The translations under genes were made by a program, and so were the position numbers. Source: Antedon mediterranea (Eukaryota; Echinodermata; Crinoidea; Comatulida; Antedonidae). Taken from it: a stretch of 64,000 nt of DNA. Of the stretch, positions 1 to 62,822 are shown one piece after another (positions within the stretch are counted from its first letter, which is position 1; each line of letters opens with the position of its first letter). Below the pieces are notes generated by a model. It saw only the letters and a list, made by a program, of their open reading frames with translations, searched no databases and was not told where the DNA came from. The stretch is taken from the NCBI RefSeq assembly GCF_964355755.1, contig NC_092670.1:22691201-22755200 (forward strand), given 5' to 3'.

Positions 1-3000
1 ATACGAGCACGTAGAATTGAACAATTTGCGCGCGTTTTTGAAGAAAAAGTTCAAAAATTCGTCAAAATTATGCCTTTTTTAAAACAGTCATAGATTCTAA
101 ACTCCGAGGTGAAAATATTTAAAATTTCAGATTCTGGAAGTAGATGAGTTGTTTTTCTCGAATCATGCATTGATATGGCTAACCAGACATTGTGACGTCA
201 TCGTATGGCCACCCGAATATAAAATATAGGATTTTTTTCTCTTTCGTCATAGCTCGTCAATTTAATAGAGCGCATCTCTACTTATCCTTATTCCATTTCA
301 CTCAATTTTTTTATATTGTCTAGATCAATCAATTACCTTTCGCATGATCCACCATTTTAAAAATTGTGATGACGTCATCATATTCAAATGCGTCAATAAC
401 TTTGGTCACTTATTTTCACCTATTCTGCACTGTATGTAGTACGTATACAGTATATAGTGTTATACCGTATATACTTAGACGCGACGCAACATAGAGAGCG
501 CACTAACATTTTTCAATGCCATAATCGTTTTATTTTTTTGCGCGCACTATTCTAACGTATGACGTGCACGTGGCTTTTGCACTGCGGATAACCTAACTCG
601 TCCGTAGTGACGAGTTCAAATCTAGTTGGTTATCCGCACTTGGCGGATAACCCCTTGTTATTGTCAGGATCTTTTTTTTTTTTTTCGATATTCTTCTTTC
701 TTTCCACGAATTTTGTTCGCAGCGTATCTCTACTTCTAGCCAACATATGATTCTATAACTTTGTTATAAGATTGGCCTGTAGCTGTAGATGTGCAGGACA
801 TTTTTTTTTTCGAATTTTGAGTCGCGCAGCGTAAGTTACGCGCGATTTTATGAATTTCAATGATTGATCATAGATTAAAAACTAAAAGTCATTTTGTATT
901 GAAACTCGGTGAAAATTTAAGTCATATCATGCGCAAACTTTCTATGGATTAAAAATGGCATGTTTCACATAAAGTTACGCGCGCACGTGCGTTTAAAATT
1001 TCAAAATGCGTAAAATTAATTTCTAATCAACTTTCTACGCGTTCCAGGTCATTTTGAACATTTCAAAAATTCCCACGCATGCGCAATTTTTTTACGCGCG
1101 CGTGCGCACTTAGGGCAAAAACATCTTTTTTTTGCTTGATTTTTGTTTTTTCAGCCTTTTCTAGTAAATTTACCAATTTTCAATCAATTTCGACTTAAAA
1201 TCACGTCATACGAGCACGTAGAATTGAACAATTTGCGCGCGTTTTTGATGAAAAAGTTCAAAAATTCGTCAAAATTATGCCTTTTTTAAAACAGTCATAG
1301 ATTCTAAACTCCGTGGTGAACTTTTTTTAAATTTCAGATTCTGGAAGTAGATGAGTTGTAGATAAAAAATCATTTATCAATATGCCTAACCGGACATTGT
1401 GACGTCATAGTATGGCCACTCGAATATAAAATATAGGATTTTTGTCTCTTTCGCATAGCTCATCACATTTAATAGAGCGCATCTCCACTTATCCGTGTTT
1501 CATTTCCTCCCATTTTGTTATATTGTCTAGGCCAATCGATTATCTTTCGCATAATCTACGATTTTTTAAATTGCGATGACGTCATCATGTCCAAAAGCGT
1601 CAATAACTTTGGTCACTTATTTTCACCTATTCTGCACTGTATGTAATACGTATACAATATAATAGTGTTATACCGTATATACTTAGACGTGACGCAAAAT
1701 AGAGAGCGCACTAACATTTTTTCAATGCCGTAATCGTTTTTTTGCGCGCAATATTCTAACGTATGACGTGCACGTGGCTTTTGCGCTGCGGATAACCTAA
1801 CTCGTCCGTAGTGACGAGTTCAAATCTAGTATTTATTTCTTTCTTTCCACACTTCTCTCCCATTTTTTGTGGGCAGCGTATCTCTAATTCTAGCCAACAG
1901 AAGATTGTATAACTTTGTCAAAAGATTGCCCTATATCTGTAGATGTGCAAGAAACTTTTTTTTTCAAATTTCGAGTCGCGCAGCGTAAGTTACGCGCGAT
2001 TTTATGAATTTAAATTATTGATCATAGATTAAAAACAAAAAGTCATTTTGTATTGAAACTTGGTGAAAATTTAAGTCATATAAAGCGCAAACTTTCTGTA
2101 GATTAAAAATGGCAGGTTGCACAAAAAGTTACGCGCGCACGCGCGTTTAAAATTTCAAATTGCGAAAAATCAATTTCTAATCAACTTTCTACGCGTTTCA
2201 GGTCATTTTGAGCATTTCAAAAATTCCCACGCGTGCGCAAATTTTTTACGCGCGCGTGCGCACGTAGCGCAAATACATCATTTTTTTGCTTGATTTTTGT
2301 TTTTCCTGTCTTTTTTAGTAAATTTACCAACTTTCAAACAATTTCGACTTAAAATCACGTCATACGAGCACGTAGAATTAAACAATTTACGCGCATTTTT
2401 GATGAAAAAGTTCAAAAATTTGTCAAAATAATGCCTTTTTTTAAACAGTCATAGATTCTAAACTACGTGGTGAACTTTTTTAAAATTACATATTCTGAAT
2501 GTAGATGAGTTGTAGATATAGAATCATGCATCGATTTGGCTAACCGGACCTTGTGACGTCATCGTATGGCCACACGAATATCAAATATAGGATTTTTTAC
2601 TCTTTCGTCATAGCTCGTCACATTTAACAAAGCGCATCTCCTTTATCCGTGTTCCAATTCCCCCATTTTGTTATATTGTCTAGGTCAATCAATTATCTTT
2701 CGCATAATCTACCATTTTTTAAATTGTGATGACGTCATCATGTCCAAAAGCGTCAATAACTTTGGTCACTTATTTTCACCTATTCTGCACTGTATGTTGT
2801 ACGTATACAGAATATAGTGTATACCGTATATACTTTGACGTGACACAAAATAGAGAGCGCACTAACATTTTTTCAATGGCATAATCGTTTTTCTGCGCGC
2901 AATATTCTAACGTATGACGTGCACGTGGCCTTTGCGCTGCGGATAACCTAACTCGTCCGAAGTGACGAGTTCAAATCTAGTTTCTTTTTCTTTTTCTTTG

Positions 3001-4900
3001 TTCTTCTTTCTTTCCACGAATTTTGTTGGTCGCATATCTCTAATTCTGGTAAATATAACATTGTATAACTTTGTCATAAGATTGACCTGTAGTTGTAGAT
3101 GTGCAGCCAAGCTTTTCGACGATTTCGGAGTTGCGCAGCGTAAGTTACGCGCAATTTTGTGAATTTCAATGATTGATCATAGAATAAAAACTAAAAGTCC
3201 TTTTTTATTGAAACTTGGTGAAAATTTAAGTCATATAATGCGCAAACTATCTATGGATTAAAAATGGCATGTTTCACAAAAAGTTACGCGCGCACGCGCG
3301 TTTAAAATTTCAAAATGCGAAAAATCAATTTCTAATCAACTTTCTACGCGTTTCATGTCATTTTGAGCTTTTCAAAAATTCCCACGCGTGCGCAATTTTT
3401 TTTACGCGCGCGTGCGCACGTAGCGCAAAAACATCATTTTTTTGCTTGATTTTAGTTTTTTCAACCTTTTCTAGTAAATTCATCAATTTTCAATCAATTT
3501 CGACTTAAAATCACGTCGTACGAGCACGTATAATTGAATAACTTGCGCACGTTTTTGATGAAAAACTTCAAAAATTCGTCAAAATTAGACCTTTATTTAA
3601 ACAGTCATAAATTCTAAACTACGTGGTGAACTTTTTTTAAATTACATATTCTGGAAGTAGATGAGTTATAGATATCAAATCATGCATAAATATGGCTAAC
3701 CGGACATTGTTACGTCATCGTATGGCCATTCAAATATAAATAATAGGATTTTTGTCTCTTTCGTCATAGCTCATCACATTTAATAGAGCGCATCTCCAAT
3801 TATCCGTATTCCATTGCTCTCCTTTTTTTTATATTGTTTAGGTCAATCAATTATCTTTCGCATGATTTACCATTTACATTTTTTTTATGACGTCATCATG
3901 TGCAAAAGCGTCAATAACTTTGGTCGCTTATTTGCACCTATTCTGCACTGTATGTAGTACGTAATAACAGTATATAGTGTATACTCTCTATACTTAGACG
4001 TTACACAAAATAGAGAGCGCACTAACATTTTTTAAATGGCATGCTCTTTTTCCTGTGCGCAATATTCTAACGTATGACGTGCACGTGGCGTTTGCGCGGC
4101 CGATAACTTAACTCGTTCGTAGTGACGAATTCAAATTTATTTTTTTAATTTTTCTATATTCTTCTTTCTTTCCACGAAATTTTTTCGCAGTGTATCTCTA
4201 ATTCTGGAAAACATAAGATTGTATAACTTTGTCATAAGATTGACCTGTAGCTCTAGATGAGCAAGAAGCTTCGTTATATGATTTTAGAGTCGCGCAGCGC
4301 AAGTTACGCCCGATTTAATGGAATTTATGGTTGCTTATAAATTCTCAACACAAATTTATTTTTATTTTTTTATTAAGTGCATTTCATAATATTTAGCAAC
4401 TTTTTGTCATGATAAAAATGGCTTGCTACGTAAAAATTACGCGAGTAGATTTGAATTCATATACATATTTTGTCTATCTATGTCATGACGTCATCATATG
4501 ACCAGTTAAATTCAAAAAAGTCAAATTAGAGCGCATCTCAGTTTCATGTTTCCAAAATCCAAATTTTTATTAAAGTAATTATTTAGATAATTAAATTATA
4601 TAACATATACAGTGTATTCTGAAATATGCTGTCAGCACTGTAAACATATTTATGTCATACTCATAGGATGGCATAATAATTGCCAGCGTGCCCAATATTC
4701 TTCAACTTCTAAGAATATAATTAGTTAGATAATTATTCTCTGAAGTTGTTACCTTCATGTTTTATTTTGATGACGTCAACAAGTGAAAATTTGAATGAAA
4801 ATATGGGTCTCGTAATATTTTCTAAGCTTCACTGTAATATATACCAGACGTATGACACAAAATAGACACAATTCATTAAAATCTCACTTTTACCTACCTG
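1..4900 (+). mobile_element. Tandem array of non-autonomous Helitron-like units (~1.1 kb each)
   Basis: Four to five head-to-tail copies of one unit, all in the same direction. The phrase 'atacgagcacgtagaatt' recurs at 1, 1208, 2362 and (changed) 3518. Each unit appears to start TCTCTA after an A (726, 1881, 3033, 4195). It ends with a perfect 8-bp hairpin, AACTCGTC/GACGAGTT, followed 5 nt later by CTAG and then T (CTAG at 622-625, 1826-1829, 2977-2980). TC...hairpin...CTRR between A and T is the classical Helitron signature. The first unit is cut by the window edge. The fourth has a mutated end near 4140. The fifth decays gradually to about 4.9 kb. No coding capacity is seen. The 30-odd bases before each TCTCTA are also partly shared, so the exact left end is uncertain. 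Confidence 0.7.
595..652 (+). repeat. Helitron 3'-end hairpin plus adjacent second palindrome
   Basis: Stem AACTCGTC (595-602), loop CGTAGT, stem GACGAGTT (609-616), then CAAAT and CTAG (622-625). Directly after it, GGTTATCCGC (628-637) pairs perfectly with GCGGATAACC (643-652). That second 10-bp palindrome is absent at the other unit junctions. Confidence 0.65.
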
Positions 4901-6545: not shown

Positions 6546-9500
6546 TTAAAATTTAATTTGAATGGCTTCATGATAGCTATAATAAATTGGAATTACTTCA
6601 GCCTGTACTGAATCAAGACCTTTGCTATAAACATGATCAATCAATGTATTGTTTTCAGTTGTAGAACATGTAACATGTTGTTTGTACTCATTCTCTGCCA
6701 TTAAATTATTCACTCTGGAAGATTGTTTGAAAAGATTTTCATTAAAATCACCCATTACAATACATTTTGTGCTCATTTTATGTAACTCTTCCAAATGTTT
6801 TCTCAAATTTTGACAGAATTGATTAATATCATAACTTGGGGGTCGATAAATTACTGACACGGCAAAAGAAATCGGACTTGTTATTAAAAATGAAACTGCT
6901 TCTATATCCTTATTACATATGTTTAATCTGCTTGAAGACGTGTTCTTGGCATACACTGCAACGCCACCATGAGCCCGATGTTTTATTTTGGAACTGAGAT
7001 CATTTGTATTAGAATACGAATCATACCTTGCTTGGTGATAAAATTTATACGGCTCAATGCGTACGTCAAAAACATCATCATCCTTGTTTAACCATGTTTC
7101 AGTTAGACATATGATATTAGAATTCATAAACAAATCATTACACTGAAGATCAACAAAATGTTGTTTAAGCCCTTGAATGTTATGTAACATTATTGAAAAT
7201 CTAGAAGCCGAATCATGACCTTGTTTATCACATTGTACGTATGAATCCATATTATTTAAGCACTTCTTTATGTTTGGATCACAATAAATCAGACTAGGTT
7301 TAAAATTTTCAATAGTAAGTCCAGTTATTGAAGTAACACGACTGAGGCCTACATATGCTTGACCATGCGTAAAAGTATCTTTAAGGCAAACCACCGCTTT
7401 ATCCATTGTCATTCCTTGCACTTTATGAACTGTGCATGCATATGCTAATTTGAGAGGAAATTGTTTTCGACTGTATTTTTTCCCCATAGATTCTTTAAAC
7501 ATTTCAATTGCCTGAATACCAATGTCATTATTGTCAAATTTTACTTTAATAGATACTGGTTCGGTGTTATGATCAGGTTTGACTATTTCATCAACATGTC
7601 CCATACATCCATTCGTTAAGCCTTTTTTAACATCTACATTTTTAATCAACATCACTCTGGCATTAATTGCAATCCATAAATAATTTAGTAAACTAGTTTG
7701 ACGTGAATTCCGAGGTTTGTCACAATTTTTGCTCTGTTTCTTGCTATTTACTACACTATCTTCTGCTTTAATGCATACAATGTCTGTACAGGTTTTGTGC
7801 AACATTTTTTTATTCCATTCATCAACTTGTTTGTTGCGTGGGTAAATATGAACAGCATCTTCACATTCTTCACCTGTTTCACGTGATTTTAGAACTAATA
7901 AATCGTTATCAGACAAACAATCATGTTTTTCTTTTGTACGCAATTTGTTTAACAATAAAGCAAATTGTTTATCTTCTTTTTGCCTCATGATTTGATCTAA
8001 CTGTACTTGCTTAAAGTTGTCTATCCACAGTGAGCTTTCCAATGTGTCTTTATATAACGAACTGCCCATCACCGGGGGTAACTGATAAAAATCACCAACA
8101 GCAATTACTGAAATGTTACCAAATGGACTATCGTTGCGTACTTGTTTTATTTGCCTTAATCGTCCGTGGATATACCAAAGTAACCTTTGATTTACCATTG
8201 ATATTTCATCTATAATAACAATTTGCAACTGGCCCAATTTATTACGAAGTGCACTTATTTTTTCTTCTCCAAGTGGTTGATACGGAAGTGAAATATTAAT
8301 TGGGATCGACAAAGCGCTATGAATAGTTTGGCCTTTAATATTATATGCTGCGATTCCTGTAGGAGCTAATTTCAATATTGACAAATCATCGGGATTTTCC
8401 ATAATCTTTCCGAGAATACGTGTCGCTTCATTATAAATACAATTTACCAAATGACTTTTTCCTGTACCAGCGCCTCCAGTTATGAAAGTGTAAAATGCTT
8501 CAGGTTTTTTACCATTAACTTTGTCTAAACACCATTGTCTTGTCTTATAAAATATATGTTGTTGTTTTTCATTTAAAGATCGAATCATTTTGTTCAATTC
8601 TGGTCTTGGAATATTAAATGAATTAGACTCTACTTTAGATGTTTGATTTTTTTGAATTCCAAAATCTGGAATGAAAAAGTCATCTTCTTCATCATCAACC
8701 TCTACATTTGGCTTTGGGTTGTCTAACCTTTCTTTTTCGCTTTCTGGACATAATAGGCTCCATGCATCTTCTTGTGGTCCAAATTTTGATAAACATTCCT
8801 GTGCTTCTTCTACATCATCAGAACTTTTTTCATATTGTTCCATGTTTCCATGAACTATTGACTTTACCGTTTGTAATTGACAGCCACATAATTTCACACA
8901 TCCTTTCTCATGAAATTGTTCATACGTTTCAAAATTTGGAGGTTTTAACTGTTCATCTTTTCGAAATGGTAGAAATAACTGAAGTACACTCAAAAAATAT
9001 TTCTCAGGTGCTGTATCCATTGGAAATCGAGGGTATCTTACTATAGCATTACTAGTTCGTGTTCTTTTTTGGATGAATCCATACTGTTTTTTTAACTGAA
9101 ATACATTCTTTTTTTGTTTGTTTCCTTTCATTTCTGATGAACTCAATATTCTATATTCCGAACAAAATTTTGCAAGGCACATTTTATTAAATTCAGAACT
9201 ATTAGGTCGAGCTTTATATTTGTCGATCTTATTTGGCAACCATGCACTTACATCATCATCTGCTTTGTTTTTAATTACACTTAGTGGTAAACTCATTCTG
9301 ACAGGATTAGGTCCTACTGGGATAAATTCAACTTTTCTTGAACATTCTTTTAATCTTAAACTACAAACGCGATAAATACTTTCTTGTGCAGACACTTCTC
9401 GGTTATTCATATAAACATTACCAAGTTTTCGCAAACTTTGTCTAGCATCTTCATTGCCTTCTTTCACTTCTGATGCTGCATGAGATAAAAGTAAGCCCAT

Positions 9501-11402
9501 TTCCCGTTCAGATTTAGACATGTATCCTATAACGTAAATAATACATGCATATACATTTGTAATATACTGAATATCCATATTAGCATTCCATGCTCTCAAT
9601 AAGGAAGGATTATATTGATTTACCCACACATCTTGAGGGTTTCTCTTTATAACAATTTTTTCCTCAGTAGCTACACAATTATTTGCTTTCTCAAATGCAC
9701 TCTGTGTAATACCTAAACTTTGAAAAAGTTCTATTGCATTTCTATATGTTTCTTCATTACTCACAGCATCTTTTACTGAGGTTAACAGCTCCATTGCTTG
9801 TTTATTGTCATCATTATCATCATTGTCTTTATCCACAATTGTAGGTCTCATAACAAATGTATTTCCAGAAGGTTGTCTGGGGAAGTTAAATCTGCAATTT
9901 GTTCCCTTTTTTTTACATGATTTAGAATGTCTTTTACTGTGAATTTGCACACTTTTAACAATTTCATTCATTTCAGGATCTACAGTTTCACATGGCACAG
10001 CACAAGAAATATATTTATCGATAAAATTAATAACTTCTTTATCTTTATCTGTACCAAAAATAGGAGCATTTTCAACCCATACTAACATATGAACATGCGG
10101 ACTTCCTCTCATTTGAAATTCAATTCGGTAAAAATAATCTATGACTTTACCAATAGGCTGTGCTTCAGACAAAATTACATTTTTCAAAAAAGTATGAAAG
10201 CGTTTGTCAAACATTCTGGCAACAGTCACTGGATTTGATTTCAACAAATTACATTTATCTGCCCATTCCAATTCTTCAATGTTTCTTAGGTCTCCTGACT
10301 GACTTAACAATGTCGTCATTATTTCTTTCCAACGGAAGTCAGCACTTGAGAATGAAAGAAAGAATGTTGGCTTTCCAATCTGTCTAACCATTGCTATTAC
10401 ATCTTTCTGTGTAGCTTGCCAGTACGGTGGAGTTCCTCGAATTTGTTTTAAAAATTTATAACCCCTATCAGATTTTAAAATTTCCTCAATTTTGGTAACA
10501 TTTTTCAAATCGGATACAGTAACTTTGCTAAAATCATCCTTTTTACTTGACCCTTTTCGCAATGCAATAGAAATACTTGATAAAATTTGTTGAAGTTCAT
10601 ATAAAGATTGAGCATAAAATATGTATTCTGCATTTTGTGCAAACCTGTTATCTATATGCATTAATCTATTATGAAAATAACGTCCGAGTGTTATTTTAAC
10701 ATCTCTCGTGTCATGGAATGTTGGTTGGCCTGTTGGAAATAGCACTGGAAATGATTTTGCTTCATTGCTTTTATTACTTAATAATGCAATAGGGCTATTA
10801 TTTTCACACGGTGCACAACAAATTATGTCATTAAAATATTCATCAACCAAATTTTGTCGCCTATCAACAGGTTGGAGACTTGTATCAAAGATAGCACCAC
10901 ACAATCGGTCTTCTACTTCTTCCTCTTCTTCTTCATTGTTTTCTACACATGTTTGATTTTCATGTACCTTAGTATTTGCATTTTCGATATTTTCTTCAGA
11001 TAAATAATTATGCCATTCTTCATTAATAGCTATATCAAAATAGCACTTGTTATGATCTTGTAAATATCTAAGAGCTTGAATAACATTGGCAGTGTTAACA
11101 AATTTATATTTGTAATAACCTTTGTAAGACAACTTTCGCTTCAATTTTACGGAAATTAATTGATCATCAACCTGTGGTCTAGGCAACATTTTTACAGTTT
11201 CAATAGTATTTGATGGTACACATACGACTGGTCCATGTATTCCATTCTGTCCACCTTTTGGTAAATTTATTAATTTCATAAAAGGAATGTTTAATCCAAT
11301 CAAATGCTGCTCTAAATTATTTAAACACCTGAGCTCAGGAGGAATTTCGTGTAGTTGTAAATTGTTTGAATTGGCTTCTGCGGGAACTTTCCCGTTTAAC
11401 AT
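6546..11402 (-). CDS. Helentron Rep/helicase-endonuclease (C-terminal 1,618 aa of the polyprotein)
   Basis: Expected to nick, unwind and join transposon DNA by rolling-circle replication in the nucleus. Seen in order: the end of a DUF6570-like region (residues 1-130, with NGKVP, IPPEL and IPFMK); Helitron-like N/Rep with the HUH motif HVHML near 434 and the tyrosine-region motif YVIGYMSK near 620; PIF1/Pfh1-type superfamily 1 helicase with Walker A GGAGTGKS near 979, DEISM, GDFYQLPP and HKVQGMT; then an exonuclease-endonuclease-phosphatase domain from about 1407 (HNIQG, TETW, VIYRPP, GDFNE, TLIDHVYS). The ATG start is unlikely to be the original one: the same frame continues upstream through a single TAG into the 11427-15875 ORF, and the residues in between (ICFTCHRKM) match the family. 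The last endonuclease motif reads SYHE where the family has SDH, so nuclease activity may be lost. Confidence 0.9.
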   Translation of the reverse strand: MLNGKVPAEANSNNLQLHEIPPELRCLNNLEQHLIGLNIPFMKLINLPKGGQNGIHGPVVCVPSNTIETVKMLPRPQVDDQLISVKLKRKLSYKGYYKYKFVNTANVIQALRYLQDHNKCYFDIAINEEWHNYLSEENIENANTKVHENQTCVENNEEEEEEVEDRLCGAIFDTSLQPVDRRQNLVDEYFNDIICCAPCENNSPIALLSNKSNEAKSFPVLFPTGQPTFHDTRDVKITLGRYFHNRLMHIDNRFAQNAEYIFYAQSLYELQQILSSISIALRKGSSKKDDFSKVTVSDLKNVTKIEEILKSDRGYKFLKQIRGTPPYWQATQKDVIAMVRQIGKPTFFLSFSSADFRWKEIMTTLLSQSGDLRNIEELEWADKCNLLKSNPVTVARMFDKRFHTFLKNVILSEAQPIGKVIDYFYRIEFQMRGSPHVHMLVWVENAPIFGTDKDKEVINFIDKYISCAVPCETVDPEMNEIVKSVQIHSKRHSKSCKKKGTNCRFNFPRQPSGNTFVMRPTIVDKDNDDNDDNKQAMELLTSVKDAVSNEETYRNAIELFQSLGITQSAFEKANNCVATEEKIVIKRNPQDVWVNQYNPSLLRAWNANMDIQYITNVYACIIYVIGYMSKSEREMGLLLSHAASEVKEGNEDARQSLRKLGNVYMNNREVSAQESIYRVCSLRLKECSRKVEFIPVGPNPVRMSLPLSVIKNKADDDVSAWLPNKIDKYKARPNSSEFNKMCLAKFCSEYRILSSSEMKGNKQKKNVFQLKKQYGFIQKRTRTSNAIVRYPRFPMDTAPEKYFLSVLQLFLPFRKDEQLKPPNFETYEQFHEKGCVKLCGCQLQTVKSIVHGNMEQYEKSSDDVEEAQECLSKFGPQEDAWSLLCPESEKERLDNPKPNVEVDDEEDDFFIPDFGIQKNQTSKVESNSFNIPRPELNKMIRSLNEKQQHIFYKTRQWCLDKVNGKKPEAFYTFITGGAGTGKSHLVNCIYNEATRILGKIMENPDDLSILKLAPTGIAAYNIKGQTIHSALSIPINISLPYQPLGEEKISALRNKLGQLQIVIIDEISMVNQRLLWYIHGRLRQIKQVRNDSPFGNISVIAVGDFYQLPPVMGSSLYKDTLESSLWIDNFKQVQLDQIMRQKEDKQFALLLNKLRTKEKHDCLSDNDLLVLKSRETGEECEDAVHIYPRNKQVDEWNKKMLHKTCTDIVCIKAEDSVVNSKKQSKNCDKPRNSRQTSLLNYLWIAINARVMLIKNVDVKKGLTNGCMGHVDEIVKPDHNTEPVSIKVKFDNNDIGIQAIEMFKESMGKKYSRKQFPLKLAYACTVHKVQGMTMDKAVVCLKDTFTHGQAYVGLSRVTSITGLTIENFKPSLIYCDPNIKKCLNNMDSYVQCDKQGHDSASRFSIMLHNIQGLKQHFVDLQCNDLFMNSNIICLTETWLNKDDDVFDVRIEPYKFYHQARYDSYSNTNDLSSKIKHRAHGGVAVYAKNTSSSRLNICNKDIEAVSFLITSPISFAVSVIYRPPSYDINQFCQNLRKHLEELHKMSTKCIVMGDFNENLFKQSSRVNNLMAENEYKQHVTCSTTENNTLIDHVYSKGLDSVQAEVIPIYYSYHEAIQIKF

Positions 11403-11426
11403 TTTCCTGTGGCACGTGAAACAAAT

Positions 11427-11429
11427 CTA
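11427..11429 (-). other. Single in-frame TAG dividing the Helentron polyprotein
   Basis: Read on the - strand, the upstream ORF ends PRCRL-TAG and the same frame continues ICFTCHRKMLNGKVP into the second ORF. Related Helitron proteins have an aromatic residue (Y/W) followed by IC..CHR..L..GK at this place. The stop sits inside a conserved Cys-rich domain, which favours a nonsense mutation over a natural gene boundary. Confidence 0.85.
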
Positions 11430-14400
11430 TAAACGACATCTTGGTGATTCGACAAATTCACAAGGTTTATTACATTCATTGTTGCAAATATGCAAATACT
11501 TTTCATTTATACAACCCTTATTTTTGTATTTAGCTTTGATGCACTTCATAACTTGATCTTTGAATAACAATTTAAAGCATACACAACAAACATATTCAGG
11601 ACCACGAGAAACTGTTTTCCTGAAGTTTTCTAAAACAATCTCAAAATTAGTGTTTTCTGTTTTGATTTTTTCCCGATTCTTCATGTTTTTCTTCATGATT
11701 TTGTTTCGGAACCCTTCATCACCATGATACTTTTCTGTAAATCTTTGCTTACACCTTTGCCAAAATTTTAAATTACCTCGATATTTCTCAGCCAATTTTT
11801 GTTTACAGTTTTGTCTAAATTTCAAATTACTCCTATACTTTTCTGCCAATTTGTCTTTGCATTTTTGTCTAAATTTCAAATTACTCCTATACTTTTCTGC
11901 CAATTTGTCTTTGCATTTTTGTCTAAATTTCAAATTACTCCTATACTTTTCTGCCAATTGGTCTTTGCATTTTTGTCTAAATTTCAAATTACTCTGATAC
12001 TTTTCAGCCAATTTTTCTTTACAGTTTTGTCTAAATTTCAAATTACTCCAATACTTCTCTGCCAATTTCTGCTTACGGTTTTGCCGAAATTTCAAATTAG
12101 TCCGATACTTCTCTACCAATTTATGCTTAAGGTTTTGTCGAAATTTCAAATTACTCCGATACTTTTCTGCCACTTTTTGGGTAAGGTTTTCTCTGAATTG
12201 TGAATTATTACAATACTTCTCTGATAATATTTGCTTCAAATTTTGTCGAAATTGTGGATCATTGTGATACCTCTCCTTACTTCTTTGTTTATTATTTTGT
12301 ATAGTTGTATGCCTAAACATTGTATCATTGTTGTATCGATTCTTTTTGGTTTCTTTTTTGGTTGTTCGGTAATCCAAATTAATGTTGTAGTTATGTCTAG
12401 CTTTATTTCGTACCTTCACATTATATTCAGGTTCACATTTATACATTTTGTGTTGTCTTTCTTTGTTTTCCTTCCTCTTTTGGAATTTATAATCATCATC
12501 ACCATATCTTATTTTTTGTGCCTCTTTTACTTTGCGTTTTTTTTCCTCTCTGTATACAGAATCACTTTGATATTTGTTTCCGATTTCATTTGTTTCTTTT
12601 GAATTATTGTTTTCTTCTGTTTCCCGTTTAATTTTTTGTCGATTCTTTTCTCTTTCTTTTTTAATTCTATAAGATTGTTTTCGTTTTCTGCTCAATATTT
12701 TTACTCTGCTTTCTGAACAAGGTTTTTCAACATTTTTACTCTGTTTGGGTTTTGGTTCTATATCTTCAAATGTGTCACAAGTTTCTTTTCCTGTTTGCTT
12801 TCGTTTCCTTGTTGTCACATTCATATCAACTTGTCCTGTTGTTTCCTGAACATTAGTTTGACTCACATTGACAGATTCTACTACATTAAAATGTACATTC
12901 ATGGTGTACAAAATATATATACCATTGTCAGTTGTAACATCATCTATTCTTCCCGGCTTTTTAGCAGAAAACAATTGCCACGTCAAAAGTTGATCATTAA
13001 ATGAATAAATATCTGTATTAAGCAAGTTTGCCATTGCACTTATTTCAGTATTGGATGCCCACGTTCCATTATCCATTACTCTTTTTTTAAACACATATTC
13101 CTTAACTGATCTATATTCGTGACTAAATGTATTAATAAATAAGTCATCAGTTTCCAATAAATGATTAGTAATTGCTCTTCTTAAAAGTAAATGATTATTT
13201 TCAGTCCCAGAAATAATGTATGAAATTGCACGATAAAAACAATTACCATCACCTGTAATATTTGTAATTTGAAGAGGATGTCCAATCTGACTAGCTCTGT
13301 TAATACCACAATTCATATCGGTATGTTCACAATGAATGCCTACTTCATTACACATGTTTTTCTTTTGTGCTTCTGAGGTAGGAATAAATTTAAAATTCTT
13401 GTCAGGTCTTTCTGCATACTGAACATTAACAATTTCAATATCACTATCACTTTGCCATCCATTACTTGATGAGACATGACCTTCTTTATTATGTTTTTTG
13501 CCTTTAACGTTAGAATCAATATTCTTGTCTGGTAATCTTGTACTACATTTATACTGATAAGACGTACTAGGTTCATCAACGTCGACGTTTCCCAAGTTTC
13601 TTTGTTCACAATTATCATCGAGCACAGAAGCGGAACATAACATCATAGACTTATTTTCAATATTTACACCAGTCAGTTCAAACTCGGTTTCATGTATATT
13701 ACAGTTCATTGACCTTGCTAATCTTATACAATAATCGTACACACCTTGCCAAGATGGACTGTAAAGTAAAATACTCTTTCCATGTTTACTAACACAACCA
13801 AATCGATCTCTTGCATGTGGATCAAATATAAGAAATCCATTTACACGTTTGATAATAGAAAATGTGCTTCTGTTGAAATTCATAAAAAATGCATCATGTT
13901 GGTGTAATTCTTGTTCAAGAGCTTGGTTTAATGACAAGGCTCCATATTCAGCCATAAATTCGAGATTTCCATCTATTATGCCAAAAACTGATTCTTTGGG
14001 AGATATTACAAATGTGTTATCCAAGATATCCAATTCTTTCGGCAGTTCAGAAATCATTAAAAGGTCCTCGTGCATAGTGGAATCTTTCTGAATGTAACGG
14101 TACAACTCGTTTCCAAGAGTCAATATTGTATCAAGGTCTTTGGTGTAAAATTCATTTCTATTCCTCTTTGTAGAATAAAGAATAGCTACAAGACTATTTG
14201 CAACACACTGTTTACCACTTGCAAAGCCAAATCTATAATTCCCTTGAATAAAATTACCCTGTGCTACAGTTATATTTTCATTACTATTATATACTTGTAA
14301 TTCATTTATTGATTGTGTTTTCTGCCTTTTTCGTGTATTTTTTTGTTTTGGTACATCATCGATTATGAATTCTTCCGAAAAATTATTTTTTGTTAAAACT

Positions 14401-15875
14401 TCAATATCCACATCGATTGTATGTTGGTCACATTTAGGTTTAGTATGGGACCTAATTTTTTCAGTCACTGCTTTTTTGCATCCGTCATCAATTATCAATA
14501 CTTCATTTTCCTCAAATTCACAACTTGCACATGTTTGATTTTTATGATCTGTACCATTACTATCAATTATTCTACTTCTGTCATTCATTTTGCTATTATT
14601 TTGTGCTTTCGCATCGTCAGTCGCTGTGTTGTCGTTTTCTACAGTACATTCTATTTTAAAATCCTCGTCAGTTTTCGTTTCAGAATTGTCATTATTACCC
14701 ATGTTCTTTATATCTTTCATAGTATCGCAATCATTCTTTAAATTCACATTACCTTGTGCTTTTTTGTTATCAATCTTCTTAGTTTTGACAAAACGACCCT
14801 TGTTATTTCGTAAACGTTTCGAACCACCACCTGATTGTTGTTGTATTCCGTTTGTTACTTTGGTATTTTTCAAAACATCACACATAGGCCTACCACTGTC
14901 GTCAATTATTGTTTGTGAATTTCCCAATACATTCGTTTTAGCATTTTCTTTGTTGTATTCTCTGTAAGTATTTGTATTCATATTCCATTCCATTTTGTTA
15001 TTATTTCGTCTTTCATAGAAATCTTTTACACCTTTGCCAATATATTTTACACCTGGTTCTATACTTATACCATTTATAACGCGCTTTCTCCTTTTCTTAT
15101 TTCCTCTATTTTTACATCTTTTTTTTCTGTTGTCGGTTCTTTTCTTTGATTTTACCCTTATCCAATCACTACCAAGTAAATCTTCACTTCCTGTTTGTTG
15201 ACATTTTTTTAATTTGGCATTATTACGTTTTTCCTTATTTTTCGTTAAGTCTGCAGTGACAGATTCATCAGGTTCTAGAATCGTATATCTATTGAAATGA
15301 CAGGGAATACCTATTTCACCCAATATGTTATCAACAAAATTACTATACCCACACATTGAACAAATCCAAATTACTCTGGAATCACATAGTTTGTCTTCAA
15401 AAACATCTCTTACACATTTCACATGAAAATATTGACTACAACAGTCACATGTTATGCAATTGTCGTCTGCTTTCACTTCAATACTACACAAATCGCATGT
15501 ATCATCAAACTCTGAAGCGACCTCTGTACTATAAGATAATATGTTTATGATATCATCAATTATTTGTTTAAATTCCGTTGTATCTTTGATAACTTCACAA
15601 TCGACATTACATGTATCATCATTTTCCAGTTTTATAGTGCTCATGTCTTTGACATTCTTAGATAAGCAACATTGGTCAAGTAGGTCCAAGATTTCATCAA
15701 TGACTGTTTCAAATTCTGTTGTATCTATAATACCACTATCAACATTACCAGCTGTATTGACATTATTGTACCCTTTATTTGTATTTTCTTTATTATTCTT
15801 AAAAAAGCACCATAACATTAAGAAGAACATTAAAAACAACATACCAATAATAAAGGTTATTAATAGTGTATCCAT
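11427..15875 (-). CDS. Helentron N-terminal polyprotein part: PHD, C76-like and OTU proteases (1,482 aa)
   Basis: Upstream half of the element's protein. Residues 5-26 are a strongly hydrophobic stretch, an unexpected membrane segment. Residues ~125-178 are a Cys/His-rich PHD-like finger (CDLC, CDCC, FHVKC, CSMC). Residues ~540-720 resemble a C76-type deubiquitinating cysteine protease, with a probable nucleophile in GKQCVANSL and an Asp-Pro-His in FDPHARDRFG. Residues ~868-995 are an OTU domain with GDGNCFYRAI and a late His in VHFNVV. Residues ~1190-1385 are about ten copies of a basic 17-residue repeat (LAEKYRSNLKFRQKCKD type) encoded by 51-bp DNA repeats. The C-terminus has Cys pairs (EYVCCVCFKLLF) belonging to the DUF6570-like region that continues past the TAG. 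Domain calls are by eye; OTU is the firmest, C76 moderate. Confidence 0.82.
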   Translation of the reverse strand: MDTLLITFIIGMLFLMFFLMLWCFFKNNKENTNKGYNNVNTAGNVDSGIIDTTEFETVIDEILDLLDQCCLSKNVKDMSTIKLENDDTCNVDCEVIKDTTEFKQIIDDIINILSYSTEVASEFDDTCDLCSIEVKADDNCITCDCCSQYFHVKCVRDVFEDKLCDSRVIWICSMCGYSNFVDNILGEIGIPCHFNRYTILEPDESVTADLTKNKEKRNNAKLKKCQQTGSEDLLGSDWIRVKSKKRTDNRKKRCKNRGNKKRRKRVINGISIEPGVKYIGKGVKDFYERRNNNKMEWNMNTNTYREYNKENAKTNVLGNSQTIIDDSGRPMCDVLKNTKVTNGIQQQSGGGSKRLRNNKGRFVKTKKIDNKKAQGNVNLKNDCDTMKDIKNMGNNDNSETKTDEDFKIECTVENDNTATDDAKAQNNSKMNDRSRIIDSNGTDHKNQTCASCEFEENEVLIIDDGCKKAVTEKIRSHTKPKCDQHTIDVDIEVLTKNNFSEEFIIDDVPKQKNTRKRQKTQSINELQVYNSNENITVAQGNFIQGNYRFGFASGKQCVANSLVAILYSTKRNRNEFYTKDLDTILTLGNELYRYIQKDSTMHEDLLMISELPKELDILDNTFVISPKESVFGIIDGNLEFMAEYGALSLNQALEQELHQHDAFFMNFNRSTFSIIKRVNGFLIFDPHARDRFGCVSKHGKSILLYSPSWQGVYDYCIRLARSMNCNIHETEFELTGVNIENKSMMLCSASVLDDNCEQRNLGNVDVDEPSTSYQYKCSTRLPDKNIDSNVKGKKHNKEGHVSSSNGWQSDSDIEIVNVQYAERPDKNFKFIPTSEAQKKNMCNEVGIHCEHTDMNCGINRASQIGHPLQITNITGDGNCFYRAISYIISGTENNHLLLRRAITNHLLETDDLFINTFSHEYRSVKEYVFKKRVMDNGTWASNTEISAMANLLNTDIYSFNDQLLTWQLFSAKKPGRIDDVTTDNGIYILYTMNVHFNVVESVNVSQTNVQETTGQVDMNVTTRKRKQTGKETCDTFEDIEPKPKQSKNVEKPCSESRVKILSRKRKQSYRIKKEREKNRQKIKRETEENNNSKETNEIGNKYQSDSVYREEKKRKVKEAQKIRYGDDDYKFQKRKENKERQHKMYKCEPEYNVKVRNKARHNYNINLDYRTTKKETKKNRYNNDTMFRHTTIQNNKQRSKERYHNDPQFRQNLKQILSEKYCNNSQFRENLTQKVAEKYRSNLKFRQNLKHKLVEKYRTNLKFRQNRKQKLAEKYWSNLKFRQNCKEKLAEKYQSNLKFRQKCKDQLAEKYRSNLKFRQKCKDKLAEKYRSNLKFRQKCKDKLAEKYRSNLKFRQNCKQKLAEKYRGNLKFWQRCKQRFTEKYHGDEGFRNKIMKKNMKNREKIKTENTNFEIVLENFRKTVSRGPEYVCCVCFKLLFKDQVMKCIKAKYKNKGCINEKYLHICNNECNKPCEFVESPRCRL
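11760..12300 (-). repeat. 51-bp coding tandem repeat in the Helentron ORF
   Basis: About ten copies of a 51-bp unit encoding a basic 17-residue motif (AEKYRSNLKFRQ...). The central copies (11830-12000) are nearly identical while the outer ones diverge. This suggests recent expansion by unequal exchange inside the coding region. Confidence 0.85.
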
Positions 15876-16151
15876 TATGTATGGTTAATCAAATCCAGAA
15901 ATTGTTTTCAAATTCTATACAATTGATGTATTCTACTTCGTAATTACTTTATACAAATATGTTTTTTTTCCTGCTAAACTTATATTTATCTTTCCAAATT
16001 GTGTTTCGAGACAACTAATGTTTATATTCACTACGCCTAACTTTTTTGGTTCTGCAAAAGCCTTGATAAAGTTTCTATAGATAATAGAAAGATAGATAGA
16101 TTTAGATAGATAATAGACTGCTGTCTATAAAAAGATTTGAGATTTCGTTTT

Positions 16152-16205
16152 ATTCATCCAGTGGAGATTTTGCTTAAAATAATTCATCCAGTGGAGATTT
16201 TGCTT
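16152..16205. repeat. Short direct repeat upstream of the Helentron ORFs
   Basis: The 24-bp segment beginning 'attcatccagtggagatt' occurs twice with a 30-bp period (16152-16175 and 16182-16205). It lies between the first ORF and the hairpin cluster. Confidence 0.8.
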
Positions 16206-16249
16206 TAAATTTGCTTTCGTTGTTGCTGATATGGAATACTTATAATCGG

Positions 16250-16329
16250 TTAATCCTCGTTGGTACTCTCTTTCGGAGAGCAGGATCTCTTTCGGAGATC
16301 CGGGTCTCTTCTGAGACCCAGCGGATTAA
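16250..16329. other. Cloverleaf-like cluster of three hairpins inside an outer stem
   Basis: Outer stem TTAATCC (16250-16256) pairs with GGATTAA (16323-16329). Inside are three perfect hairpins: CTCTC/GAGAG (16266-16280, loop TTTCG), GGATCTC/GAGATCC (16283-16301, loop TTTCG) and GGGTCTC/GAGACCC (16302-16319, loop TTCT). The last two stems differ by a compensated A-T to G-C pair. It lies about 375 bp upstream of the first Helentron ORF. It lacks a T-loop or anticodon arrangement, so it is not an ordinary tRNA. Confidence 0.8.
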
Positions 16330-16896
16330 TTCTTCAAAACTCTGCAATAAAAGAGAAAGAAAAATTATTAATAATGTTATATATTTTTTCTACCCCATGA
16401 CTTATAAGAGAAAATTCTTGCATAGTATTAGTAGGCATGCTCAAGCAGCATAATTGTAATACGCATGATATAATCATTCACTTCACAATCTTTGTGCGAG
16501 TTAATCGCTTAATTAAACTCATTAGTAGTTAGAGATGATAGATCAAAGAAACATACTATGTTGTGAGTCATAACTTGAAAATAATGTAGTCCAAACTATA
16601 TGATTCTAGTTGGTATCTTTTACATAACCCAATTTTTTTTATAGGTTAAAATAAACTACAAAAACTAATGTATTTTTTTTAATAAGGCCCTGTCATAGGT
16701 ATCATGTAAAATGAATAATGATTAATCGGCAGCACACGTGACTCATAATACACAAAATACTGTATAACACATTTCATGGTAGCTGTAGTAGATTTTACCG
16801 ATTTTAAATGATGTAAACTTTATTTTGCATTTTTAACAATTTGTAATGTATTTGTTTTATCACATCTTGATATTAACTGTATCAAGGGGTGTAATT

Positions 16897-17425
16897 GCTT
16901 CTTAATCAATGTCTGAAAAATTAATAAATTTCCTCAAAATGACTTTGGGTATGAGACGGCTGATTAGGGCCTACATGTAGTCTCAATGCTAATTTCATTT
17001 AATATTCACAAACAATAAAATCTGAATTATGTAAATGTTTCATAATAGAAAATGCCTACAAAATAACAGGCAACAGTTCACAAAGTAAGGAAAATATGTT
17101 TTCTCCGTTTAACAGATAATCTACTAATACTCACAGCTGTAGCTGACACTGTAGGCCTATGTTTTCTACAATCTAAAAAATACAAGTAAAAACATTAATA
17201 ATGGCAATAAACAACATAAAAACTTTTTCCAAATCAACATGCTTCTTAATCAATGTCTGAAAAATTAAGAAATTTCCTCAAAATGACTTTGGGTATGGGC
17301 CGGCTGATTACATGTGGTCTCAATGCTAATTTCATTTAATATTTTAATCACAAACAATAAAATCTGAATTATGTAAATGTTTCATAATAGAAAATAATGC
17401 CTAAAAAATAAAAGGCAACAGTTCA
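16897..17425. repeat. Direct duplication of ~185 bp (offset ~344 bp)
   Basis: The sequence starting 'gcttcttaatcaatgtct' occurs at 16897-17081 and 17241-17425 with small changes. The spacer has no recognised feature. No gene is seen between 16340 and 17620. Confidence 0.75.
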
Positions 17426-17633
17426 CTCCCAATCATGAGGCCATTAATCATCTCTACAAATTATTTATTTTAATTTATGTACACTACTTACGATATTCTA
17501 GAGATTATGAAGTAAAAACAATGTTATTACACTATTGTTTATCTCTTCCAACAGCTACAAGACAAAAATATATTCTATAAAATATATTATAAAAATCAAT
17601 ACAAATTGTGATCAAAACAGCCACAACATTTGG

Positions 17634-18209: not shown

Positions 18210-18920
18210 TTTGTAACAATGAGATAAGACAGGTGCGAAAGGGAACTACGCTGACCTACACTACTACTAGGACTACTAGACTGACCTACAACATGCTATA
18301 ATTGTAAGCTCATTCAACGAGTCGTTGTTTCTTCTCTTTAATTAAGAACTTATAAACTAAAAACTAAAGTTAATATATATATCCAAGGTGCAAAAGGAAA
18401 CTAGCACCGTTTAGTCCTACTAAAAACAGGCTAGGCCTAGGTACACTGTGTAGTAGACCTATTTGTTCATATTTAACATACACATCAGGCCATACACGAT
18501 TGTCGTGCTGCTCCGGAAGCCATCGGGCAGAAAAACTTCACGACGTTTGTCATCTCTCAAACTACAGCCTTCCCGTATGGTGTATAGCACACTAAACACA
18601 TGCCTCTATATCATTAGGCCTAGCTAGCCTAGAGGGTAAGTAGAAATTACAAAACAACTACAAATTAAACAATCCACATAATTTCTTACCTATTTCTAAA
18701 CAAACTTGAGTTTGTTATCAAGTTTGTTATTTCTTAATATTCGTTATATATCAAATAGTATTTGTAATACAGTATTATCAAAGTTATTAATATAGTTTTC
18801 TTGTATCTTGTATCAGAACGACTCTGTACAAACCAACATGGAGTTATCAACACATGAAGTATGGCATGCAATCCTCGCCAAAATTACCAATATGTAACGA
18901 ATAAAGGAAATTAGTTGTGC
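18210..18920. other. Intergenic region, no gene seen
   Basis: AT-rich DNA with short 'taggcct' words and remnants of the neighbouring foldback end. A GGTAAG at 18634-18639 could be a splice donor of an upstream non-coding MMD exon, but nothing else supports this. Confidence 0.35.
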
Positions 18921-18928
18921 ATCGCGTA

Positions 18929-19960
18929 TCTCTAAAACGTGTAAACATAACATTTCATAACTTTGACAGCATATGGGCATTTACGTGAAGTTGTGCACCT
19001 CCTATTTTTAAATGACTTCAGAGTTGCGCAACATGACTTACGCACGTTTTTACGAAATTCGCGTATTTAACATAGATCGAAAACCATTATAACAATTTAA
19101 AGTTTAATTTATATCTTGCGCTAACTGACTATGGAAAAATGGCATGTTTCACGCGAAGTTACGCGCGCACGTGCGTTTAAAATCTAAAAACGCAAAAAAT
19201 CTATTTCTAATCAATTTTCTACGCGTTTCATGTCATTTTAAACTTATAAAAATTCCCACGCGCGCGTAGCGTTATTTTTGTTTTCTAGCCTTTTCTAATA
19301 ATTTTACCAATTTTAAAACAATTTCGACTTAATATCACGTCATACGAGCACGTAGAATTTGACAATTTGCGCGCGTTTTTGATGAAAAAGTTCAAAAATT
19401 CGTCAAAATTATGCTTTTTTTAAACAGTCATAAATTCTAAACTACACGGTCAACTTTTTGTGGATGACATATTCTGGAAGTTGATGAGTTGTAAATATCG
19501 GATCATGCATCAATATGGCTAACCGGACATTTTAACGTCATCGTATGGCCACTCGAATATAAAATATAGGATTTTTGTCTCTTTCGCATAGCTCATCACA
19601 TTTAATAGAGCGCATCTCCACTTATCCGTATTCCATTTCCCCCCATTTTGTTATATTGTCTAGGCCAATCAATTTTCTTTCGCATAATCTACCATTTTTT
19701 AAATTGTGATGACGTCATCATGTCCAAAAGCGTCAATAACTTGGGTCCCTTATTTTCACCTATTCTGCACTGTATGTAGTACGTATACAGAATATAGTGT
19801 ATACCGTATATACTTTGACGTGACACAAAATAGAGAGCGCACTAACATTATTTCAATGGCATAATCGTTTTTCTGCGCGCAATATTCTAACGTATGACGT
19901 GCACGTGGCGTTTGCGCTGCGGATAACCTAACTCGTCCGAAGTGACGAGTTCAAGTCTAG
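18929..19960 (+). mobile_element. Solo copy of the Helitron-like unit
   Basis: Same unit as the 1-4.9 kb array, in the same orientation, about 1.03 kb. It starts TCTCTA after an A (18929). It ends with hairpin AACTCGTC (19930-19937)/GACGAGTT (19944-19951), then CTAG (19957-19960) followed by T. The right end is as well preserved as in the array; the left ~400 bp is more diverged. It lies just upstream of MMD exons. Confidence 0.75.
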
Positions 19961-20254
19961 TTTAATATAATCATTGTGTACTACAAAACTTTTCAGAGAC
20001 TGACTGAGTCAAGGTGTTTTTTAGACTCAGCCTTGCTAGTGTCTCAAGTGGAAAAAGGTTTACATTATGAGGTTTGTACACTTTTTAGTATTATTAATAT
20101 TATATTTAATCTTAATTGTGTATTTTTTCAAATAAAAGAGTTTTTAAATATAATTTTGTATAAAACACAACTTTCTGTGCAATTATAATTTGTTTCCATT
20201 ATAAAATATTTATGATTTAACAAATGTTAGTTTATGGTTTTATTTTTTAGACTA

Positions 20255-46553: not shown

Positions 46554-62822
<16,269 letters not shown>

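Follow-up and report, generated by a model that had tools for sequence, protein, structure and literature searches.

An 80-bp cloverleaf at positions 16250-16329 of the window (the whole 64,000-nucleotide stretch of Antedon mediterranea DNA that was analyzed) is best explained as an RNA structure that acts in cis from the 5' edge of a leader exon in the mRNA of a Helentron replicase; this mRNA would encode an OTU-Rep-helicase-endonuclease protein. Judged from the sequences of the window and of related copies in the same genome, this reading is given a probability of about 0.68. It is built from three steps of decreasing firmness. Comparison of copies shows that pairing has been maintained and that wobble pairs fall on the sense strand, a splice acceptor and a scarcity of ATG triplets strongly suggest that the cloverleaf sits in a leader exon, and the structure may in turn adjust how the replicase mRNA is translated or spliced, or how stable it is.

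The carrier element and the fold of the cloverleaf

The carrier of the cloverleaf is a Helentron, i.e., a Helitron2 element with an endonuclease, in agreement with the first-pass annotation of this DNA. The ORF list and domain searches placed a first ORF with OTU protease and Herpes_teg_N matches at 11427-15875 and a second ORF, encoding Helitron Rep, a PIF1-type helicase and an endonuclease, at 6546-11402 (domain matches: Helitron_like_N, 4.7e-36; PIF1, 3.3e-29; Exo_endo_phos, 3e-09). Because both ORFs lie on the minus strand, the cloverleaf is located upstream of them and its sense strand is the minus strand. A single open frame of 2,993-3,181 amino acids is present in 37 of the 47 ORF copies found in the genome, so the window copy, in which this frame is split in two at 11402-11427, is an interrupted one.

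The ends of the element were recognized from sequence and from sampled copies. On the plus strand, the 5'-end hairpin and ATIR pattern, GGTTATCCGC-N5-GCGGATAACC, occupies 628-652, while the 3' end at 19919-19962 consists of the ATIR GCGGATAACC, the hairpin AACTCGTC/GACGAGTT and an end near CTAGTT. The carrier thus has a 5' ATIR with a hairpin and a 3' ATIR just upstream of a 3' hairpin, and hairpin and ATIR ends are features of Helitron2 and Helentron elements according to the available text of two reports (PMC3627910, PMC4067079). The direction of the ORFs opposes the 5'-to-3' direction of the element, an arrangement that the first of these sources, in the part available, describes for some Helitron2 elements (PMC3627910). 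Helentrons insert between T and T; at the six sampled places, the neighbor on the 5' side was T in every case (6/6) and the 3' neighbor was variable. Both ends were ~1.1-1.25 kb apart in five of the six sampled places, three of which look single (L073, L075 and L077) and two of which adjoin a further unit (L074 and L078).

These positions bear directly on the proposal that the cloverleaf is an end of the element. The available text of PMC3627910 describes hairpins at Helitron2 5' ends and reports that those of two related elements show compensatory changes, features that a terminal cloverleaf would share. The Helitron2-type ends of the carrier lie elsewhere, however, and the cloverleaf is internal, with similarity on both sides; seven other near-identical copies continue past it on its upstream side for ~1.1 kb to nearly 3 kb, as far as they were compared. 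A terminus, one of the roles raised in the first-pass annotation, is extremely improbable.

Several arrangements were observed around the carrier. Arrays of ~1.15-1.2 kb units, arranged head to tail, surround the autonomous element (window 1-4366 and 18915-19962; L011-L015), and the units are non-autonomous, HINE-like Helentron copies. The 5' hairpin is kept at some junctions of these HINE arrays and missing at others. Autonomous Helentrons themselves cluster head to tail, with ~20-70 kb between neighbors (C1 14.50-14.56 Mb; C4 19.88-20.03 Mb), and HINE arrays link neighboring autonomous elements in the stretches that were read. Elsewhere in the window (49555-51600), a ketoacyl-synthase domain of a fatty-acid-synthase-like gene is preceded by a dense 30-bp tandem repeat in which several frames are open.

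On the coding strand, the cloverleaf is a four-way junction, as predicted by folding and by comparison and covariation among other copies. Its outer stem pairs TTAATCC (5' strand, 16323-16329) with GGATTAA (3' strand, 16250-16256), an assignment based on the coding-strand fold, a hand alignment and covariation. The fold and the hand alignment also define three arms of 7 bp each on the minus strand: arm 1 (16302-16319) with the loop AGAA, arm 2 (16283-16301) with the loop CGAAA, and arm 3 (16264-16282), which includes one G-U pair and again has the loop CGAAA. The plus-strand description given earlier, with hairpins of 5, 7 and 7 bp, two of them sharing the loop TTTCG, within the same 80-bp fold and outer stem, proved accurate; on the minus strand, the third hairpin grows to 7 bp through its G-U pair.

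Both strands fold more stably than all 200 of their shuffled counterparts. The predicted RNA fold was -36.5 kcal/mol for the plus strand (z -4.32; 0/200 shuffles) and -36.8 for the minus strand (z -6.27; 0/200), and the plus strand folded as DNA gave -17.9 (z -4.76; 0/200). The most diverged carrier, L063, also had nearly equal values on the two strands (-25.8, z -2.45 and -26.0, z -2.75), and fold energies alone do not tell the strands apart in either copy. In L063, the outer stem, arm 1 and the full set of four conserved helices appeared only in the coding-strand fold. When five copies were folded in longer context, the arms were present in 10 of 10 folds and the outer stem in just 4 of 10, which may make the hairpin array the functional core.

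Two other kinds of feature were considered. A tRNA was ruled out, as the first reading had held, by the lack of any ARAGORN prediction in the 64-kb window, and a known Rfam family by the finding of no family at the gathering threshold for the cloverleaf, where the weak overlapping matches (E 1.9, 2.9 and 3.4) were all far below gathering. An open frame crosses the cloverleaf in the window copy, yet a protein-coding exon fails as an explanation, because loop lengths vary by one base among subfamilies and L063 and L052 have stop triplets in the corresponding frame (read by eye).

Maintenance of pairing among diverged copies

The distribution of the cloverleaf was established within a single genome and among related copies. 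When the first 200 residues were used as a protein query, 47 ORF copies matched over most of that length, with shorter fragments excluded, and the DNA upstream of all 47 was examined. The expectation that other copies would carry the cloverleaf with its stems maintained was borne out in 40 of them (8 in subfamily a, 27 in b, 4 in c and 1 in d) and not in the remainder, which comprised one expanded form, one remnant and five copies (L056 and L059-L062) in which no cloverleaf was found within ~4 kb upstream. The expanded form belongs to a broken copy (L028, C5:11493 kb) and has eight arms that match the pattern and, before them, one more recognized by eye, while the remnant, L027, retains the 3' end of the cloverleaf alone. 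Arm number ranges from about nine in L028 to one (L040:2643-2688) and two (L052:545-608), the last two being second copies. In the 39 copies measured, 455-1,086 nt separate the start of the cloverleaf from the ORF match. A tree of 13 copies, based on ~500 residues and rooted at its midpoint for drawing, places L059-L062 apart from all carriers and leaves the placement of L056 relative to L063 unsettled; a gain of the cloverleaf within the family is plausible. Neither protein nor arm-pattern searches of viral_contigs returned relatives outside the genome.

Several alignments and covariance models were used to assess pairing. A first model, R1, contained only 17 pairs, with misplacement of arm 2 of subfamily b by MAFFT the suspected reason, and was replaced by R2, a model of 7 rows from which subfamily b was left out. 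Alignment A2 comprised 7 of the 12 rows of A1, with four subfamily b rows and L040 dropped and both L017 copies kept. The R2 model recovered all 27 subfamily b copies (E 6e-19 to 5e-21), and its opposite-strand matches, 8 of 57, were weak (E 1.7e-5 or worse); the 57 matches, including these 8, make up alignment A3, which was left out of the counts. The counts come from A4, which holds 13 distinct rows from 11 chosen sources, including the two-arm second copy L052:545-608 and leaving out the one-arm copy of L040 and the L016/L028 array. Drawing rows from chosen sources means that identical copies count once.

Across the 13 rows of A4, standard pairs occupied 96.3% of 356 cells, a level reached by none of 500 shuffles, whereas slid controls paired at 27-52%. 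Two-sided changes affected 10 of 28 pairs and 25 cells, neither of which was matched in 500 shuffles. An unfitted 7-row alignment gave a similar picture, with 94.9% of cells pairing (0/500 shuffles) and five pairs showing two-sided change (1/500). The measure of "further pair types" was no better than in shuffled data in either alignment (301/500 for A4; 500/500 for the unfitted 7-row alignment). Judged from these aligned copies, compensatory change has preserved the pairing of the cloverleaf as the subfamilies diverged, and the earlier view that structure rather than sequence is conserved is upheld, with pairing retained while letters change across copies. The A-T to G-C exchange that had been reported between stems 2 and 3 is present as well; it lies between neighboring arms of one copy, and the paired exchanges between copies in the 13-row alignment carry more weight.

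The self-complementarity of the arms might instead have arisen by mutation, if the arms were kept paired, without function, by template switching in palindromes and by the copying of entire hairpin units. The arms within a copy are alike, their number ranges from one to about nine, and loop changes are common to neighboring arms within a subfamily, all of which would follow from such a process. The outer stem is harder to account for in this way, since its strands are separated by ~66 nt and it also has a two-sided T-A to C-G change. The process also fits poorly with G-T occurring without A-C (described below) and with retention of the block while the flanking leader aligns patchily between subfamilies. 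A purely mutational origin is unlikely.

The mismatched cells point to the strand that folds. Written for the coding strand, the non-Watson-Crick cells of A4 included 24 G-T at 8 positions and no A-C (the others were T-T, A-G, C-T and G-A), although fitting this alignment to a model of the coding strand tilts it in favor of G-T relative to A-C. In the 12-row hand alignment there were 21 G-T and one A-C, which occurred in L063 before a bulge was allowed there. A preference for G-T over A-C is not expected if the other strand or both DNA strands were used. As read from this wobble asymmetry, the folded strand is the sense strand.

A predicted leader exon in the replicase mRNA

A strong 3' splice acceptor is predicted just 5' of the cloverleaf (16342-16367, minus strand), with a pyrimidine tract of 18/20 ending in GCAG. 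An equivalent acceptor, with 17-18 of 20 pyrimidines and ending in CAG or TAG, lies 11-21 nt upstream of the cloverleaf in all 40 intact copies; at the window's own rate, the chance of such an acceptor in a 16-nt slot is 0.0009-0.0022. The acceptor and the ATG count together predict a 5' leader that spans 15876-16341 on the minus strand, between the acceptor and the first ORF. Donor-like sites are predicted upstream of the leader.

ATG triplets are scarce within these leaders. The window leader (subfamily a) has 2 where 6.2 are expected, a weak deficit when taken alone (P 0.055). The numbers seen and expected were 4/13.7, 1/11.4 and 2/12.5 in subfamily b, 0/11.9, 0/12.2 and 0/13.1 in subfamily c, and 2/17.5 in subfamily d; these rows are related and hence not independent, and the four subfamilies agree. 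On the upstream side, eight representatives had 8-25 ATG triplets against 11-25 expected. An ATG-poor stretch following an acceptor fits a 5' UTR that is scanned by ribosomes. Together, these features strongly suggest that the cloverleaf lies within the leader exon of the replicase mRNA, and a structured 5' leader is the one role suggested in the first-pass annotation that the acceptor, the ATG scarcity and the sense-strand wobbles support.

The copies that lack a cloverleaf share this organization. In L059-L062 the acceptor recurs and the leaders, 734-865 nt long, contain no ATG or one; the 425-nt leader of L056 contains a single ATG, which may be its own start. The leader can thus do without the cloverleaf, and the leader exon appears to be more widely distributed in the family than the cloverleaf is.

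When the upstream regions of the four subfamilies were compared, a block containing the cloverleaf was common to five of the six subfamily pairs and was not found between b and d. This block begins at the acceptor in the c-d and b-c comparisons, and the leader aligns only in patches between subfamilies (b-c, b-d and c-d). Subfamily a also shares other upstream pieces with each of the rest: 344-bp repeats with b, 3'-end sequence with c and a 330-bp repeat with d. The 344-bp tandem repeats lie upstream of the leader (window 16896-17426; L065), are ~90% alike and each hold an exon-like block; a possible upstream mini-exon is predicted within them at 17134-17172 on the minus strand (TTTTTTAG/ATTGTAG ... 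CAGCT/GTGAGT).

The cloverleaf might alternatively act at the level of DNA, as a Rep binding or nicking site or a secondary replication origin whose hairpin cluster forms in single-stranded or cruciform DNA. It folds as DNA too, the variable arm number resembles an iteron array, the two strands of L063 are similar in fold energy, and terminal hairpins are thought to be important in Helitron2 transposition (PMC3627910, available text). The cloverleaf is nevertheless absent from six sampled stretches adjoining terminal hairpins, five of which have both ends, and the genome contains 862 5' hairpins of the terminal type against ~42 cloverleaf loci (being identical to its reverse complement, the hairpin pattern hits the same sites in both orientations). 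The wobbles favor the mRNA-sense strand, and the strand displaced in rolling-circle replication would, by the end convention, be the other one. A DNA-level signal also leaves the acceptor and the ATG scarcity unexplained, and the origin or Rep binding site put forward in the first-pass annotation is quite unlikely.

Proposed function, parallels and meaning

For a structured leader in the replicase mRNA, a mechanism can be proposed. After splicing, the hairpin array would limit or direct replicase translation, or act on splicing or stability, with the outer stem probably closing the array for at least part of the time. A stable junction placed before a scanned leader should slow scanning. The apices of the arms are alike in the hand alignment, with loops that mostly end in AA and a conserved upper stem, and this repetition suggests a bound protein, so the array probably binds a protein, encoded by either the host or the element. 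More tentatively, these elements may form a Helentron clade with an RNA control device of its own, in which a multi-arm junction of repeatable hairpin units serves either as a switch operated by a bound protein or as a structure for ribosome entry, followed by an AUG-poor scanned leader, the replicase possibly binding its own mRNA.

Some plus-strand RNA viruses have 5'-terminal cloverleaves, in which a stem carries three arms close to the 5' end of a long leader, and their likeness to the Helentron cloverleaf is one of shape only. Within the same transposon group, the terminal hairpins of Helitron2 and Helentron elements, for which compensatory changes are reported in a pair of related elements, are described as short, terminal and common to non-autonomous copies in the available text of three sources (PMC3627910, PMC4067079, PMC5148889). 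The cloverleaf, in contrast, is a four-way junction, is internal and upstream of the replicase ORF, and is absent from sampled non-autonomous copies.

The IS200 tnpA mRNA offers the nearest functional analogy: its 5' leader folds into a stable RNA structure that reduces translation of the transposase, according to the available text of PMC12594629. The IS200 structure is a bacterial stem-loop that hides the ribosome-binding site (PMC12594629, same text), whereas the cloverleaf is eukaryotic, lies behind a splice acceptor and is 0.45-1.1 kb from the ORF; the analogy implies no homology. No report of a Helitron cloverleaf or structured leader was found among open-licence papers, which were covered in part, by title and the start of the abstract. 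Structured transposase leaders are known, and the eukaryotic multi-arm form, with variable arm number and a position behind a splice acceptor, adds a new variation to them.

To our knowledge, little is known of how Helitrons and Helentrons control or time their replicase. A conserved fold behind a conserved acceptor offers a concrete, mutable control point for this protein, for which natural variants with one, two, three and about nine arms exist alongside sister elements without the cloverleaf. The drop in ATG frequency, in turn, maps the Helentron leader exon from sequence alone.
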